NCBI RefSeq assembly: GCF_016863615.1
Contig: NZ_BOPF01000023.1
Span: forward strand, 1-64,000
DNA length: 64,000 nucleotides
DNA from: Virgisporangium aliadipatigenens
Lineage (GTDB): Bacteria > Actinomycetota > Actinomycetes > Mycobacteriales > Micromonosporaceae
Direction: 5' to 3'
The notes under the pieces are model-generated. The model did not search any database, was not told the DNA's origin, and saw nothing but the letters and a program-made list of their open reading frames with translations. Shown in pieces: positions 7,743-56,711 of this stretch (position 1 is its first letter; each line of letters opens with the position of its first letter). Position numbers and translations under genes: made by a program.

Positions 7743-9038
7743 CTACATCGTGAACACAGGCTCGTCCGGCGCTTGGATGCGGCGTACGTCCGCGCCGAGG
7801 GAGACGAGGTCGGCCGCGAAGTCCGGATAACCGCGGTCGATATGGTGAACGTGCCCCACATCGGTCGTTCCATCAGCGCAAAGACCGGCCACGACGAGCC
7901 CGGCGCCGGCGCGGATGTCCGTGGCGGTCACGGGCGCGCCGGAGAGCCGCTCCCGCCCGCGCACGACGGCGTGGTGTCCGTCCGTGCGGATCTCGGCCGC
8001 GAGCCGGGTCAGCTCCTGGATGAACATGAACCGCCCGTCGAAGATGTTCTCGGTGATGAGCGAGTTGCCCTCGCTGACCGCGGCGAGCCCCACCGCCATC
8101 GGCAGCAGGTCGGTGGGGAACCCGGGGTACGGCAGCGTCACGATGTCCACGGCGGACGGCCGGCGGTCGATCCGCACCCGGAACCCGTCCTCGGACGCCG
8201 CCACGCTCGCGCCCGACGTGACGAGCTTGTCCAGCGCGATCTCCAGGTGCGCGGCCGGCACACCGTGCACGTGGACGTCGCCGCGCGTCATCGCCGCCGC
8301 GAACGCCCACGTGCCCGCCACGATCCGGTCCCCCACCGTGCGGTGCGCGACGGGGCGCAGCGCGTCCACGCCGTCGACGACGATCTGGGACGTGCCGGCG
8401 CCGAAGATGTTGGCGCCCATGGCGGTGAGCATGTCGCAGATGTCGACGATCTCCGGCTCCCGCGCGGCGTTGTCGATCTCCGTGACGCCGTCGGCGAGAA
8501 CCGCCGCCATCAGCAGGTTCTCCGTGGCGCCCACGCTCGGGAAGTCGAGCCAGATGGTGGCGCCGTGCAGCTTCTCCGCGGTGGCGATGACGAACCCGTG
8601 CTCGCTGGTGATCTCCGCGCCCATCCGGCGCAGCCCGGCGACGTGCATGTCGAGCCCGCGCGAGCCGATGGCGTCGCCGCCCGGGTGCGCCACGCGCACG
8701 CTGCCGCACCTGGCCAGCAGCGGCCCCAGCACACAGATCGAGGCGCGCAACTGGCGGACCAGGTCGTAGTCGGCCTCGTGCCGCGGCACCTCGGGCACGT
8801 CGATCTCGACGGTGGCGCGGGAGATGTCGTCCTCGGAGGTCAGCGTCACCTCGCAGCCGAGTCGCCGGACGACCTCCGCCATGATCGCGATATCGGTGAT
8901 CTTCGGAACATTGGTCAGCACCGTGCGGCCCGGTGCCAGCAGCGCCGCCGCCATCAGCTTGAGCGCCGAGTTCTTCGCCCCGACCACGGTCACGTCGCCG
9001 GAGAGCCGGGCGCCGCCGGCCACGCGCAGGAGATCCAC
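7743..9038 (-). CDS. murA: UDP-N-acetylglucosamine 1-carboxyvinyltransferase (MurA), Asp-type active site
   Basis: First committed step of peptidoglycan synthesis: transfer of enolpyruvate from PEP to UDP-GlcNAc in the cytosol. The 431-residue protein covers the whole EPSP-synthase-like fold, from [23 protein letters not shown] (Lys22/Asn23 substrate site) to HIDRGYPDF near the C-terminus. The mobile active-site loop reads [10 protein letters not shown], so the position that is the catalytic and fosfomycin-alkylated Cys in most bacteria is Asp122. This Asp form is known from mycobacteria and confers intrinsic fosfomycin insensitivity while keeping activity. It is divergent from the cobalamin adenosyltransferase gene across 33 bases. 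Confidence 0.96.
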
Positions 9039-17681: not shown

Positions 17682-18241
17682 CGCTTGCTCCCGGTGGCGG
17701 TCGGGGCGTCACCCAGCTCGTCGAGGAACCGCTCGACGGTGCCCCGCCGGCGTGCCTCGTCGGCCAGGGCCTCCCCGACGATCCGGCTCGCCAGCTCGAC
17801 CGAGAGCGCACCGAGCTCGCTGCGCAGTTCCCGCACGATCGACGCCCGCTCGCCGGCGAGCGCCTCGCGTCCGGCCGTGATGATCCGGTCAGACTCTTCC
17901 CGGGCGCGGGTGGCCGCTTCCTCACGGATGCCCGCCGCGTCGGCCCGTGCCTCGTCCCGGATGCGGGCCGCCTCGGTGCGTGCCTCGGCGAGCTGCTGCT
18001 TGTACTGCTCCAGCAGCTGGCCGGCCTCGGCCTGGGCCGCCTCGGCACGCTTGATGCCGCCCTCGATGGCGTCGACCCGGGCCTGGAACGTCTGCTCCAT
18101 GCGCGGGAAGACGAACTTCATCAGGATGAAGCAGAGCACCCCGAAGGCGATGAGACCGATGACGATCTCCTGCCAGATGGGTACGACAGGGTTGTGCTCA
18201 CCCTCGGCGGCGAGCACGACGGCGGCGAGGTTGTTTGGCAT
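17678..18241 (-). CDS. atpF: F1Fo ATP synthase b subunit
   Basis: Peripheral-stalk b subunit, 187 residues. One transmembrane helix near the N-terminus (PVVPIWQEIVIGLIAFGVLCFILMKFVFP) is followed by a long, heptad-rich charged helix (MEQTFQARVDAIEGGIKRAEAAQAEAGQLLEQYKQQLAEARTEAARI through RSELGALSVELASRIVGEAL) that dimerises and contacts delta. ATG 18241 is followed by MPNNLAAVVLAAEGEHN, a short periplasmic leader. Its stop overlaps the atpH start; atpE ends 29 bases upstream. No b' gene is present, so a homodimeric stalk is expected. Confidence 0.96.
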   Translation of the reverse strand: MPNNLAAVVLAAEGEHNPVVPIWQEIVIGLIAFGVLCFILMKFVFPRMEQTFQARVDAIEGGIKRAEAAQAEAGQLLEQYKQQLAEARTEAARIRDEARADAAGIREEAATRAREESDRIITAGREALAGERASIVRELRSELGALSVELASRIVGEALADEARRRGTVERFLDELGDAPTATGSKR

Positions 18242-18270
18242 GTGAACCTCCGTTGCCTGGGAAAAGAAAG

Positions 18271-18615
<345 letters not shown>

Positions 18616-19395
18616 TCAGTGCTCTTCGGCGATCGAGGTCTGCACGTACACCGACGTCAGCAGCACGAAGACGTACGCCTGGAGCAGGGCGACCAGCAGT
18701 TCGAAGATGGTCATCACGATGGCGATGGCCCACGAGACGATCGAGATGCCGGCCAGTGCGAAGTTGTCGCTGCCGAGCAGGACGAACCCGCCGAGGGTGA
18801 ACACGAGCAGGATGACGTGGCCGGCGAACATGTTCGCGAAGAGTCGCAGGGCCAGCGTGAGCGGCCGGAACAGGAACGTCGAGGCGAACTCCAGCGGGAT
18901 CACCAGCGGCAGCAGCCATGCCGGCGCGCCCGGGGGGATCAGCTGGTTCTTGATGTACTTCGCGAAGCCGAAGCGCTTCACGCCGACCCAGATGAACAGG
19001 ACGTACGAAATGATCGCCAGGAACGCCGGGAACGCGATGTGCGTGTTGGGCGAGAGCTGGACGCCGGGGATGATGCCCCAGAGATTGTTGAACGCGATGA
19101 AGAGGAACAGCGACGCCAGATAGGGCGCGAACTTGATGCCCTCGGCGCCGATGATGTCCTTCGCGATCCCGTCGCGCACGAAGCCGTAGGCCGACTCGGC
19201 GATCCACTGGGACTTGGTCGGCACCAGCTTCGGATTACGGTACGCGACCAGGAAGAAAATGATCGTGATGGCGACCGCGACCCACACGAACAGCGTGAAC
19301 TTCGTGAACCAGTTGTCCGGCCCGGCGATCGGGGGCAGGAAGAAGTCGTCCACGCTCGGCGGCCACGGCACCTCCGCAGCGAGTCCTCGCACCAT
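18616..19395 (-). CDS. atpB: F1Fo ATP synthase a subunit
   Basis: Stator subunit with the proton half-channels, 259 residues with five to six transmembrane helices. The essential Arg is visible in PLTLALRLFANMFAGHVI, and the partner region FELLVALLQAYVFVLLTSVYVQTS in the last helix carries the conserved Glu and Gln. The N-terminus (AAEVPWPPSVDDFFLPPIAG) is a short external segment. It begins 14 bases after the atpZ stop on the same strand. Confidence 0.97.
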   Translation of the reverse strand: MVRGLAAEVPWPPSVDDFFLPPIAGPDNWFTKFTLFVWVAVAITIIFFLVAYRNPKLVPTKSQWIAESAYGFVRDGIAKDIIGAEGIKFAPYLASLFLFIAFNNLWGIIPGVQLSPNTHIAFPAFLAIISYVLFIWVGVKRFGFAKYIKNQLIPPGAPAWLLPLVIPLEFASTFLFRPLTLALRLFANMFAGHVILLVFTLGGFVLLGSDNFALAGISIVSWAIAIVMTIFELLVALLQAYVFVLLTSVYVQTSIAEEH

Positions 19396-53117: not shown

Positions 53118-53192
53118 GCCCCTGTAGCTCAGGGGATAGAGCACCGCCCTCCGGAGGCGGGTGCGCAGGTTCGAATCCTGCCAGGGGCACCA
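53118..53192 (+). tRNA. tRNA-Arg (anticodon CCG)
   Basis: Cloverleaf seen directly: acceptor stem GCCCCTG (53118-53124) / CAGGGGC (53182-53188), D-arm GCTC..GAGC, anticodon arm CCGCC-CTCCGGA-GGCGG with loop positions 34-36 CCG, and T-arm GCAGG-TTCGAAT-CCTGC, discriminator A and an encoded CCA (53190-53192). Anticodon CCG reads CGG. Just upstream is the palindrome GCGGAGATCTCCGC (53099-53112) and a -10-like TAGGCT (53080-53085). The 3' half from 53152 is duplicated at 55687-55731, so the gene is an integration site, and the intact copy is preserved. Confidence 0.97.
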
Positions 53193-53196
53193 TCCT
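53152..53196 (+). repeat. attL-type direct repeat (tRNA-Arg 3' end)
   Basis: 45-bp sequence beginning CGGAGGCGGG and ending CACCATCCT, identical at 53152-53196 and 55687-55731; similarity continues 12 bases further with two mismatches (to CACCGGT). This copy is the 3' half of the intact tRNA-Arg gene. This is the classic trace of tyrosine-integrase integration at a tRNA. Confidence 0.9.
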
Positions 53197-53219
53197 TGAA
53201 ACACCGGTTTAGCTGCAAG

Positions 53220-53262
53220 AACGTGGCCTCTGACCTGGCGATTGCCGGGCAGGGGCCGCGTT
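53220..53262 (+). terminator. Hairpin downstream of tRNA-Arg
   Basis: Thirteen-base stem with two G.T pairs: AACG/CGTT, GGCC/GGCC and CTG/CAG between 53220-53232 and 53250-53262, with a 17-base loop. It follows the tRNA by 28 bases and could end the tRNA transcript, or the integrase transcript read in the other direction. No long T-run. Confidence 0.5.
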
Positions 53263-53319
53263 CGTTATGTCCGGTTGAGTCCGGCCGGATCTGGCCATGA
53301 TCGGCCAGTCACGCCATAT

Positions 53320-53850
53320 TTACGCCACCGTTTTCGGCCTCGATTCGTGCCCCAAAGCGGCCTCGATGAGCCGGCGGTTGCGGCGCATGCTCCGGTCAAG
53401 GCACTTGGCGTAGATCCTGAGCAACACCTCCAACGACTGGCCGGCCCACTCCACGATGTCGGTCGGCGACACTCCCCCGTTGAACCACGTCGACACCGCA
53501 GCGTGCCGCAGGTCGTACGGCCGGCCGGTGTGGTGCCGAACTCGTCCAGGTACTCGTGGAACAGCGCGGTCGACGGGGGCATGGCGCAGTGCGCGTCTCG
53601 CCGGCATTACGCTGCTTGAGCTGGCGAGCGTCGTATTCGTTGCCGTTGTCCGTCCATTCCTCGCCGGCGTGGGGCCGCACGCCGGCAAAGTGGAAATTTC
53701 TCCCCATCCCTTGTCGCGGGATGCCAAGGTGTAGCTTGCCGAGGCTGGCCACCTCCTCGGGGCCGTATCCCTGCCTAGAAGAGGCACCCGTAGTACGCCA
53801 CCAGCCGGTGCCCACGTGTCTCTGAATCGGACGCCGTTGAACACCCATGC
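53320..53850 (-). pseudogene. Degenerate tyrosine-recombinase integrase
   Basis: Integrase remnant spread over three minus-strand frames. From upstream to downstream (coordinates falling): LVAYYGCLF, an in-frame TAG, then PEEVASLGKL and WTDNGNEYDARQLKQRNAGET in a second frame, FHEYLDEFGTTPAGR in a third, a probable deletion of about 35 codons, and the C-terminal catalytic part YDLRHAAVSTWFNGGVS and EWAGQSLEVLLRIYAKCLD. The latter contains the RHxxxS box, a Gln at the usual H/W position and the nucleophile Tyr, ending at TAA 53320. The pattern matches actinobacterial integrases (usual length about 400 residues). The stop, at least two frameshifts and the deletion make it non-functional. Confidence 0.85.
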
Positions 53851-54089
53851 GTCCGTGCGCAAGGCAATTCGAGAGCTTCCACTGACCGCAGTGCGGTCGG
53901 CATCGCCAGAGTTAAGGGCATCTGCGGAACGGACAGATGCCGAACTCTGGGTTCGACCTAGGACAAGCAGGTCGGAAGGTGGACTCAAAAAGCCGGCCGT
54001 ACATTCCCATCAAGTTTGCCGATCATGGAAGTCGCTCCACTATAGTGACCTGTCGCGTTCGTGTCGCCAACGCGACGGAGGGGAACTCC

Positions 54090-55394
54090 ATGCTGGCCGC
54101 AGGGTCACTTTTGGCACGCAGAATTATCAGAGCCCTAGGGCATGCCTATACTCCGACTCTCGGAAGGCAACGAGCACGATCTTACTACAGGAGTGCATGT
54201 AACACGTGGCCCCACATAGCCAAAACCCTCACCGACAATCTCAACTGGCACACAACTGCATCGACTCGAATCATGTACCTGGCAATTTCACGCACCCATG
54301 CGAGGTGGATCGCCCGCGAACGACTCATCTTTCAATGGTTCGCGCCATTCTTCTCGACCTCATTAATGACGATTTCTTTCATGGTATTGTTCGCGACCGT
54401 CAGCGAAAAGGCGAGCTATGGATTAGATTCACTTGGCAAATGGAATCTCGACTACTATGCCATAGGCCTGCTTTGTGGCATCGCCATGGGAATTGTTTCA
54501 GTCTTCCTGTCAACGAAGCTGGCGCTGCGGGACGGGGTGATAGTAGTTGCAATGGTCCTAACAGGCGCAGCGCTCGTAGGAGTCGCCCAATCGGTCAGCC
54601 CGTCAATCTACGAAGGCGGCTGGATCCTACCGTCAAACGCGAGCACCGCAGATCGGCTGGCACTAGTCACCGGCATAGCGGGGGTACATGGCACGATAGC
54701 CGTCTCCTACACATTCGCTGCGCTTAATCTCCTACGCTTCTTTCTCGATCGGCGCCCGATAAAAAAGATGGCGGTTTCTGCAACCGTAGCCGAGATAACC
54801 AGCATCTTGGCCAACCTCTACGAGACTCGCCCCCTTCCCATGGCGGCGACGAACCTCTCCAGTTCAATGACCAGTCTTGAGAGAATCGCCGTATTGATCG
54901 GCCGAGGATTTCCTAAGATGGCGCCGGCGTCAGCGGAAATGGGCCGAAGAGCAATGGAAGATCGGTGCCAGCAGGCGGCATTCGCCGTTAGGGAATACCA
55001 AACATGGGTAGCATTGCCCGGATACGATACAAATCGAGATCTAACAGTGAAGCTGGTGGCACTACTGGGCGCCATTTGCCATCTCGAACTAAACTCTCTC
55101 CCTACACCCTCAAGTGAGTTCTCAGTTCAGGCAGGAAAATCCAAGGTAGCTCTTAACACCCTCAGAACCATAGCCGTCGGAATTCTCCCGCTTGCGGTCA
55201 CATTAGCGCTCAAATGGTCGAAACTTCTTCCTCCGGCACCTCTGGATAGCTTCGTAATTTTAATCTCGACACTCTGGGCTCTAGTATATTTGATGATATT
55301 GCTTGACCCCCTTTTCTCTGCACGCGTTAGCGTGTTCAAAGATTTTGTCTCCGTTTTCCGGGGCGGAAGTGGTGGAAATCGATCACGCCCCTAA
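54090..55394 (+). CDS. Six-TM membrane protein, cargo of the tRNA-Arg element
   Basis: Unrecognised protein of 434 residues. Predicted transmembrane segments near residues 80-105, 121-141, 148-170 and 190-218, a soluble region of about 130 residues (FLDRRPIKKMAVSATVAE, SMTSLERIAVLIGRGFP, MEDRCQQAAFAVREYQTW), and two further helices at 357-377 and 388-409, ending in a charged tail. ATG 54090 was chosen because GGAGGGGAAC lies just upstream; an earlier in-frame ATG at 53937 is less likely. GC content and codon use are clearly lower and more even than all neighbours, showing recent transfer. It is the only intact gene of the element, so it may be a defence or fitness factor; this is speculation. 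Confidence 0.75.
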   Translation: MLAAGSLLARRIIRALGHAYTPTLGRQRARSYYRSACNTWPHIAKTLTDNLNWHTTASTRIMYLAISRTHARWIARERLIFQWFAPFFSTSLMTISFMVLFATVSEKASYGLDSLGKWNLDYYAIGLLCGIAMGIVSVFLSTKLALRDGVIVVAMVLTGAALVGVAQSVSPSIYEGGWILPSNASTADRLALVTGIAGVHGTIAVSYTFAALNLLRFFLDRRPIKKMAVSATVAEITSILANLYETRPLPMAATNLSSSMTSLERIAVLIGRGFPKMAPASAEMGRRAMEDRCQQAAFAVREYQTWVALPGYDTNRDLTVKLVALLGAICHLELNSLPTPSSEFSVQAGKSKVALNTLRTIAVGILPLAVTLALKWSKLLPPAPLDSFVILISTLWALVYLMILLDPLFSARVSVFKDFVSVFRGGSGGNRSRP

Positions 55395-55686
55395 ATAGCT
55401 TTCGCAAGATCGACGGCCAACAGGCAATACTGGCATTGATGTCACACCCACGCCCTCATTGAACCGGACGGGTGCGGGTGGCAGGATCCCGGCCTCAGGC
55501 GAATGCTGCAGTACAGGAAGCGGGATTCCATTACGGCCTCCTCTAACTCACAAGCCAACCGTTTCTTAACCAGGCGGCTCCGCCAAGCATGATCACGCCA
55601 GCTACGCGCCAAAGGACGGCCTCTCTCGTGCGTCCGACGCTGATTCGCAGGTCAGTAGCCTGCCGAGATATCTATGTGCGAACCTA
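55395..55686. other. Non-coding tail of the integrated element
   Basis: About 290 bases between the cargo gene and the right-hand repeat with no convincing gene. An imperfect hairpin (55445-55455 with 55470-55480, 11 bp with one mismatch and one wobble) may terminate the cargo transcript. The rest shows no recognisable motif; the composition is intermediate between element and host. Confidence 0.5.
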
Positions 55687-55731
55687 CGGAGGCGGGTGCG
55701 CAGGTTCGAATCCTGCCAGGGGCACCATCCT
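55687..55731 (+). repeat. attR-type direct repeat (copy of tRNA-Arg 3' half)
   Basis: Second copy of the 45-bp repeat; it carries the T-arm and acceptor 3' strand only, preceded by unrelated sequence (GAACCTA), so it is not a second tRNA gene. It marks the right boundary of the integrated element, after which high-GC host sequence resumes 50 bases before the LysR gene. Confidence 0.9.
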
Positions 55732-55784: not shown

Positions 55785-56711
55785 GTGCAACTGGACCTGA
55801 ATCTGCTGGTCGTGCTCAACGCCCTCCTCGATGAGGGCAGCGTGATGGGTGCCGCCGAGCGGCTGCATCTGTCGTCGCCCGCGGTCAGCCGCAGCCTCGC
55901 CCGGCTCCGGAAGCTGACCGGTGACGACATCCTGGTCCGTGCGGGGCACACGATGGTGCCGACGCCGTACGCGACGGCGATCCGGGATGACGTTCGCGTG
56001 TTGCTCAGGCAGGTCCAGGACATGTTGGTGCCGAGCCGCACGCTGGATCCCGAGCGGTTGGAACGCACCTTCACGTTGCAGTGCCACGACGGGCTCGCCA
56101 CGACGTTGGCGCCGGCGCTGCTGCGCAGGGTGCAGGACGAGGCTCCGGGCGTCCGGCTCCGGATCCTGTCCGAGAACTCCGTCGACACGGACGAACTCCG
56201 GCGCGGGCACGTCGATCTCGAACTCAGCCAGGACCGGCCGGAGCTGTCGGAGTTCCGTTCCGAGACGCTGGGCACCGATCCGATCGTCGTGGCGATGCGT
56301 TCCGGGCATCCCTGCGCCGAGCACCTCGATCTGCCGTCGTACGCCTCGTACCCGCATGTGATCGTGTCGCGGCGGGGCCGCCTCGCCGGGCCGATCGACG
56401 AGGTGCTCGCCGCCAAAGGCCTGCGCCGTCACGTGGTCGCGGCGGTGACGACCGGCACCATGGCCCTGCACGTGGCGAGCCAGAACGACATGCTGGTCAC
56501 CACGACGGAGCTGGTCAGTCGCCCGCTTGTCCAGGCGTTCAACATGATCAGCCGGCCGTTGCCGGGCTCGTTCCCGCCGGCTCCGATCAACTGCATCTGG
56601 CACCAGCTCCACGACTCCGACCCGGCCCACGCGTGGCTGCGGGGCCAGGTGCGGGCCGCGGTCACGGAGGTCGTCGATCAGTCGGAGAGCGGCACGGCGA
56701 CGCTGCCGTAG
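55785..56711 (+). CDS. LysR-family transcriptional regulator
   Basis: DNA-binding regulator of 308 residues. The N-terminal winged helix is typical (NLLVVLNALLDEGSVMGAAERLHLSSPAVSRSLARLRKLTGDDILVR, with AAERLHLSSPAVSRSLARLR as helix-turn-helix) and is followed by a two-lobed effector domain (FTLQCHDGLATTLAPALLRRV; HVDLELSQDRPEL). GTG 55785 is the start. It begins 54 bases after the element's right repeat and converges with the NAD(P)H-binding gene, overlapping its 3' end by 34 bases. Its target is likely to be nearby (the divergent region around 57.3 kb); inducer unknown. Confidence 0.93.
   Translation: MQLDLNLLVVLNALLDEGSVMGAAERLHLSSPAVSRSLARLRKLTGDDILVRAGHTMVPTPYATAIRDDVRVLLRQVQDMLVPSRTLDPERLERTFTLQCHDGLATTLAPALLRRVQDEAPGVRLRILSENSVDTDELRRGHVDLELSQDRPELSEFRSETLGTDPIVVAMRSGHPCAEHLDLPSYASYPHVIVSRRGRLAGPIDEVLAAKGLRRHVVAAVTTGTMALHVASQNDMLVTTTELVSRPLVQAFNMISRPLPGSFPPAPINCIWHQLHDSDPAHAWLRGQVRAAVTEVVDQSESGTATLP

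Follow-up and report, generated by a model that had tools for sequence, protein, structure and literature searches.

Actinomycete integrative and conjugative elements (AICEs) are described as sitting in the 3' ends of tRNA genes, with two in tandem in a tRNA-Arg gene, in a study that excluded fragments with no more than two modules, taking them for probable remnants or islands of another kind (PMC3218068). In Streptomyces, decayed AICEs that keep part of the integrase, cargo and a pair of direct repeats were reported, and AICEs and defective AICEs accrete in a tRNA-Arg gene (PMC9513070). The definition and three-step origin of cis-mobilisable elements (CIMEs) are given in PMC5704250, and TR1 of Streptomyces scabiei was named a CIME (PMC8369830). 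The present analysis concerns a short unit lying between two copies of the 3' half of a tRNA-Arg(CCG) gene in Virgisporangium aliadipatigenens (assembly GCF_016863615.1, contig NZ_BOPF01000023.1, positions 1-64,000 of the forward strand; the whole 64 kb is called the window). With high confidence, we regard this unit as a CIME-like remnant, a deletion derivative of an AICE in tRNA-Arg(CCG). The source genome (G000, 10.3 Mb, with the window on its contig C23) was compared with a family set of 354 genomes, in which the other genomes are labelled from G001 and both G001 and G002 belong to the same genus as the source. Fetched stretches are labelled from L049 (L049 from G024, L050 from G001, L051 from G002, L052 and L053 from G011, L091 from G126 and L092 from G150).

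The unit in tRNA-Arg(CCG) and its integrase relic

The features of the unit, starting from the only tRNA gene that ARAGORN called in the window, were as follows.

53118-53192, plus strand: tRNA-Arg(CCG), the integration site, complete on its left side (ARAGORN); the only two 3'-half copies of the genome are this one and attR
53152-53196, plus strand: attL core, exact 45-bp repeat (repeat comparison)
53219-53263, plus strand: strong terminator-like hairpin in the left arm, directly 3' of the tRNA (RNAfold of 53193-53330, z -4.88)
53268-53287, plus strand: presumed left arm-type integrase sites, two GTCCGG-type repeats 10 bp apart (motif comparison)
53347-53843, minus strand: tyrosine integrase relic, C-terminal half only, with frameshifts, an in-frame stop and an internal deletion (tblastn and blastn with integrases of relatives)
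54052-54076, plus strand: 8-bp perfect inverted repeat just 5' of the ribosome-binding site of the cargo gene (seen in the sequence)
54090-55394, plus strand: intact cargo gene for a 434-aa predicted membrane protein, 53% GC, uncharacterised family (open reading frame and composition; family profile matches)
55597-55614, plus strand: presumed right arm-type integrase site, a RCCRAATACGYRCCRAA-like pair 90 nt before the attR core (trained motif model)
55687-55731, plus strand: attR core, second 45-bp copy (repeat comparison)

The longest exact repeat paired 53152-53196 with 55687-55731 at an offset of 2535 and extended to 61 bp at 95% identity when mismatches were allowed. It starts at the second anticodon base and ends just beyond the 3' end of the tRNA. 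A 39-nt pattern of the tRNA 3' half, allowing one mismatch, was found twice in the source genome, and the backwards control gave 0 copies. An earlier note on this DNA had claimed an exact repeat of the tRNA-Arg(CCG) 3' half 2535 bases away, and both the 45-bp repeat and the identity of the tRNA stood when checked.

The integrase relic was recognised with seven open integrase frames of relatives, which matched 53347-53813 on the minus strand in three frames (tblastn). The best match, with the L050 integrase, was 78% identical over 59 aa (E 2e-35), and similarity at the DNA level extended to 53843. Compared with the 454-aa integrase of G001, the relic retains about residues 252-360 and 395-454, the latter piece, the one that is 78% identical over 59 aa, being what we take to be the region with the His-x-x-Arg and the tyrosine of tyrosine integrases. 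The remaining sequence has an in-frame stop and frame shifts, and about 35 residues (roughly 361-395) are gone, while nothing convincing of the N-terminal 250 or so residues was recognised by comparison with the integrases of relatives. Judging by its reading frames, the relic cannot yield a working integrase protein; intact open copies are present in relatives. The comparison bore out the damage that the earlier note had read, namely a stop, frameshifts and a deletion. Profiles recognised less than homology did: the separate frames of the relic had no match in Pfam and one in PHROGs only at E 0.037, whereas the search with the integrases of relatives found it.

Related elements at the same tRNA gene and their ends

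A DNA search in 60 relatives and the source genome showed that DUF305-like DNA precedes tRNA-Arg, in some cases with integrase matches and a second tRNA half. The layout common to the relatives was DUF305-like DNA, tRNA-Arg, an integrase on the opposite strand, other genes and the second repeat. The repeats were 13.9 kb apart in L049, and 17.9 kb and 15.4 kb apart in L050 and L051, the different elements that both genus relatives carry at the site. Three copies of the tRNA half were present in G011, on two contigs (L052 and L053), and three also in G154. Pfam matches in the opened elements together were Phage_integrase, FtsK_SpoIIIE, SSB, DUF3631, GntR/UTRA and NUDIX, from a run on 27 proteins taken with a simple picker of open reading frames, some of them from outside these elements. 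The cargo of the relatives varies and included an IrrE-type peptidase (L050), Schlafen/AlbA (L051) and a TIR-NB-ARC-TPR protein (L052). Like the window, L049, L050 and L051 have predicted low-GC genes (0.50-0.56) close to attR; in L050 one predicted frame of 0.61 comes after them. The TIR-NB-ARC-TPR gene of G011 (L052 2693-5722) adjoins a tRNA-half copy at an element end.

The 39-nt pattern was found in 320 of the 354 genomes, with two or more copies in 32 and a single copy in 288. The earlier note had named as its refutation the same insert in all close relatives with no empty site. The genomes did not show this: no other among the 354 has a close copy of the cargo gene, both genus relatives have different elements at the site, and 288 of the 320 genomes have a single copy of the pattern. 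With the L050 integrase as query, 106 of the 354 genomes matched at E 1e-80 or better (at most four candidates per genome scored). Coordinate matching placed an open integrase at least 57% identical to that of L050 less than 4 kb from a tRNA-half copy in at least 22 genomes besides the source genome, and in at least 13 of those 22 both copies were placed, 13.9-22.7 kb apart with the integrase between them. This makes the tRNA gene a hotspot of integration.

The left arm was counted with a pattern consisting of the tRNA half, 48-78 nt and TGTCCGG. This occurred in 60 of the 354 genomes. Of these 60, 22 belong to the 32 multi-copy genomes and 37 to the 288 with a single copy, and the last is G013, which has no tRNA pattern. 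The association with multi-copy sites (Fisher p 3e-11, a value that overstates independence since the genomes are related) indicates that the arm accompanies elements. About 37 of the single-copy genomes keep an element-type left arm, so one copy alone need not mean an untouched empty site, and some single-copy sites probably represent one-ended relics; at least one such match (G285) resembles chance.

Comparison of 13 stretches showed a left-arm GTCCGG-type motif, including the GTCCGA variant of L052 and L053, at 53-88 nt past the core in 12 of them. The single-copy site L055 was among the 12, and the exception was the sequence right of attR in L050. Hairpins like that at 53219-53263 follow the tRNA in many relatives (by eye), and since several single-copy sites have one too, we rejected the view that this left-arm hairpin is specific to elements.

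The right-end motif, which an earlier comparison of shared 7-mers did not reveal, was found by a trained model of an 18-nt RCCRAATACGYRCCRAA-like pair, for which two relatives served as seeds and the window was kept out of the training. In the window the model scored 14.6 at 55597-55614 (shuffle p 0.0025), the only such score in the 64 kb on both strands. Seven of the ten other right ends had clear sites, 94-98 nt ahead of the core, at p 0.0005 or less (scores of 17.0-24.3 vs 14.6 in the window), and those seven trained the model. Overall, the unit contains the repeats, the relic, one intact gene and the end motifs seen in full-size relatives that occupy this tRNA with a matching layout. By their motifs, both ends of the unit look like ends of one element kind; the left and right motifs would be arm-type integrase binding sites, and both ends may still offer what an integrase requires.

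Closely spaced copies were found in at least two other genomes among those listed (to G206), at 2.05 kb in G126 and 3.35 kb in G150. The G126 unit (L091 4330-6449) encodes an HTH protein and a HipA-like protein and has no arm motif at either end. Its flanking tRNA-Arg(CCG) copies share a 51-bp exact repeat, and ARAGORN calls the right copy a second tRNA-Arg, though its first bases differ from those of the true gene. The G150 unit (L092 4869-8290) has a 733-aa frame without a Pfam match, a 136-aa frame and both arm motifs. The seven integrases of relatives had no match in either unit at E 0.01.

Another element of the source genome holds an open integrase (C4, 84706-86037) that is 47% identical to that of G001. 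This element (L106, 84509-98800) is about 14 kb long and adjoins tRNA-Arg(CCT), and its repeats, 14.2 kb apart, are the first 38 bases of the tRNA. Because the repeat corresponds to these 5' bases, the element lies upstream of tRNA-Arg(CCT), the reverse of 3'-end use; its integrase probably serves a different site from tRNA-Arg(CCG). A second integrase relic with an internal stop was seen on the same contig at 221353-222314 (L104).

The cargo gene and its relatives

The cargo frame is open from 53916 to 55391 and an ATG at 54090, behind a GGAGGGG stretch (by eye), gives a protein of 434 aa; from this sequence context the start is probably 54090 instead of the first ATG at 53937. The GC content of the gene was 53.0% vs 70.5% for the window, and the chance of 434 open codons at its composition is about 2e-8. 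The single AT-rich gene of the earlier note is thus indeed intact, and its AT-richness is only relative (53% GC in a window of about 70%). A simple scan of the protein showed four hydrophobic stretches, two of them overlapping. Nothing usable was found in Pfam (best DUF2368, 11.3 bits with a cut-off of 25), NCBIfam (ArnF, 20.7 bits with a cut-off of 99), PHROGs or solved structures, and the test for defence families gave no PADLOC match at E up to 10 for the protein and none at 0.01 for four relatives. A tblastn search in plasmids and phages gave none at E 1e-3, and scans of genome contigs (with the cargo protein and with a two-sequence alignment) and of viral contigs returned no relatives. 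The AlphaFold2 model from the single sequence was all helices with a mean pLDDT of 40.

Among the 354 family genomes, relatives of the cargo protein were found in 9 other genomes with the single sequence and in 20 others with a 7-row profile. The closest were 26-31% identical, the best being 31% over part of the protein and located elsewhere in its genome, and there was no second close copy of the gene. The weakest profile matches (G357, G072 and G109) may be chance membrane similarity. The shortest relatives are stand-alone proteins of about 365-500 aa and the longest, in the stretches read, are frames of 637-932 residues, in which the membrane region comes after a long N-terminal part. In the fetched stretches of long relatives, G132 had a TPR match just below the cut-off and G083 a PNPOx_N match, and the N-terminal part of the long frame of G092 may be non-coding. 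As an observation in its own right, the stretches L074 and L076-L085 hold long actinobacterial proteins with the cargo-type membrane region behind a long N-terminal part, many with a recurring WWRTGGPL-type motif (by eye) and, in the one scanned, a TPR match just below the cut-off.

Nine neighbourhoods of relatives were compared. The G089 relative (L061) lies between a tRNA-His gene and an integrase, the G336 relative (L060) 1.7 kb from tRNA-Val, and those of G187 and G275 about 2.1 kb from tRNA-Tyr and about 5 kb from tRNA-Lys, while ARAGORN found no tRNA within 20 kb of the relative in G136, G092, G132, G133 and G113. The G113 match is probably chance, since the profile search did not return it. 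A tie between the cargo family and tRNA elements is only suggestive. In L060, two short genes (7990-8424 and 18239-18673) with nearly identical first 50 residues were seen 10 kb apart around the cargo-gene relative, beside tRNA-Val.

The GC content along the locus was about 0.65 at the left repeat, 0.48-0.57 across the cargo gene and at least 0.66 past the second repeat. A promoter scan of the unit predicted two promoters vs a shuffle mean of 1.0, and two terminators vs 2.3; the 8-bp perfect inverted repeat had an ordinary folding score (z -1.42). By Pfam, the unit is flanked upstream by DUF3105 and DUF305 genes and downstream by a gene for a LysR-type regulator (55785-56711) and one for an NAD(P)-binding protein.

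Origin of the unit and comparison with known systems

From these features we infer that an AICE entered when its attP recombined with the 3' half of tRNA-Arg(CCG), which would have rebuilt the tRNA and left the 45-bp repeat at each end. A later internal deletion would have removed the replication, transfer and regulatory genes together with the N-terminal half of the integrase, and further mutations would then have ruined what was left of the latter. The remainder would be the left end with its arm, the integrase stub, one low-GC cargo gene, which may or may not serve the host, and the right end with its arm. The unit has the attL and attR flanks of a CIME, arm motifs inside both ends and only a relic of an integrase, and neither Pfam nor PHROGs recognised a transfer gene in the four frames searched. 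Its origin from an integrative and conjugative element is indicated by the larger elements of relatives in this tRNA, which have end motifs and a homologous integrase, although the parent was not found. As for a complete AICE, with intact integrase, replication and FtsK-like transfer genes, the unit has none of these intact. The repeats, the relic and the larger elements of relatives at this tRNA thus support the degenerate integrative element proposed in the earlier note.

Several observations weigh against this origin. Rather than adjoining the tRNA, the integrase of L050 starts 2.4 kb away from it and that of L051 3.8 kb away, and two of three integrases of relatives scored below the Pfam cut-off of 27.1 (24.2 and 17.1; the third 28.8). 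Two of four FtsK candidates fell below the cut-off of 24 (19.9 and 19.2), one was above it (30.3) and one had no match. Pfam pinned down no replication gene in the opened elements, and the AICE label therefore relies on the integrase, the FtsK-like gene and the layout. For the right motif, only weak sites were present in L050, which has the closest integrase (p 0.18, 94 nt), and in the inner (second) end of L052 (p 0.28, 94 nt), and none in L091. The 354 family genomes yielded no full element that carries this cargo gene, and the genus no empty site, with elements at the site in both other genus genomes compared.

An alternative is a composite of two elements, in which the integrase stub came from one, and a later element at this tRNA brought the cargo gene and attR. 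The site often carries arrays and probable one-ended relics; of the 12 bases that follow the attR core on its right, 10 agree with the first bases of the left arm, and L050 from its attR core on resembles the left end of the window (130 bp including the core, 79%). The arm-like sequence right of attR in the window and L050 indicates that repeated integrations happened at the site. However, the unit has only two repeat copies and one arm per end, and a single deletion gives the same order more simply; a composite origin is unlikely.

The remnant is very probably immobile by its own means. The earlier note had called it frozen in place, which holds in that there is no working integrase; the claim exceeds the evidence in that both cores and the presumed arm sites survive. 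With perfect cores and presumed arm sites at both ends, it could be moved by an incoming element, and it might even be a living minimal passenger that, as CIMEs are, is still excised and carried by the integrases of elements entering the site. The cores are perfect despite a heavily broken integrase, and both presumed arm sites are retained. Elements with an open integrase for tRNA-Arg(CCG) are common in the family, with three copies of the tRNA half in G011 and G154, two other short units without an integrase match stand at the site (L091, and L092 with both arm motifs), and the source genome holds the open integrase that is 47% identical. These points are offset by the lack of a second close copy of the cargo gene in the 354 genomes and by the shortness of the repeats, since at 45 bp their perfection may be luck or recency. 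The right-arm site of the window is also more degenerate than those of most relatives, L091 has neither arm motif, and cross-action of the source-genome integrase is doubtful, as its element uses the 5' half of tRNA-Arg(CCT). The right-end motif slightly raised our estimate of such a living passenger, which is quite improbable all the same. It is similarly doubtful that short cargo-only units with cores and arms (the window and G150) are recurring passengers of AICE integrases and, at the same time, that the window gene is a selected membrane-bound defence or exclusion factor of a family spreading on tRNA-targeting elements. Finally, duplication of the tRNA half without an integrase, by segmental duplication or gene conversion around unrelated genes, may have a route here in view of the 51-bp exact repeat of L091, which lacks integrase trace and arm motifs, but is almost certainly not the origin of the window unit, whose two ends carry arm motifs and whose integrase relic, oriented as usual, belongs to the family using tRNA-Arg(CCG).

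The deletion derivative of an AICE in tRNA-Arg(CCG) is a kind of remnant already known from Streptomyces, and the find is fairly ordinary. The passages compared from the AICE and CIME literature do not contain this unit or its cargo gene. Mildly new are the sparse, uncharacterised cargo family, the retention of an arm motif at each end and the repeated occurrence of short units at this site. The locus provides a clear worked case of the decay of a conjugative element in a tRNA gene, together with a family-wide census of the site in its full, short, probably one-ended and single-copy states, and the cargo protein family is its unexplored part. If passing elements can move short two-armed units, integrase-less islands would be under-counted as mobile.

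Among the systems described in the passages cited, the Streptomyces AICE remnants have their decay example in a glycosyltransferase gene (PMC9513070), whereas the window unit lies in tRNA-Arg(CCG) and carries a single unrelated cargo gene. AICEs of the pSAM2 type (PMC3218068) share with it the tyrosine integrase and integration in a tRNA 3' end, and an FtsK-like gene is present in its full relatives; they differ from the window unit, which is without any functional module. Like a CIME as defined in PMC5704250, the unit has lost the genes for integration and transfer and keeps attL and attR. It differs in that a broken integrase stub is still visible, and its cis-mobilisation by an incoming element is hypothetical.

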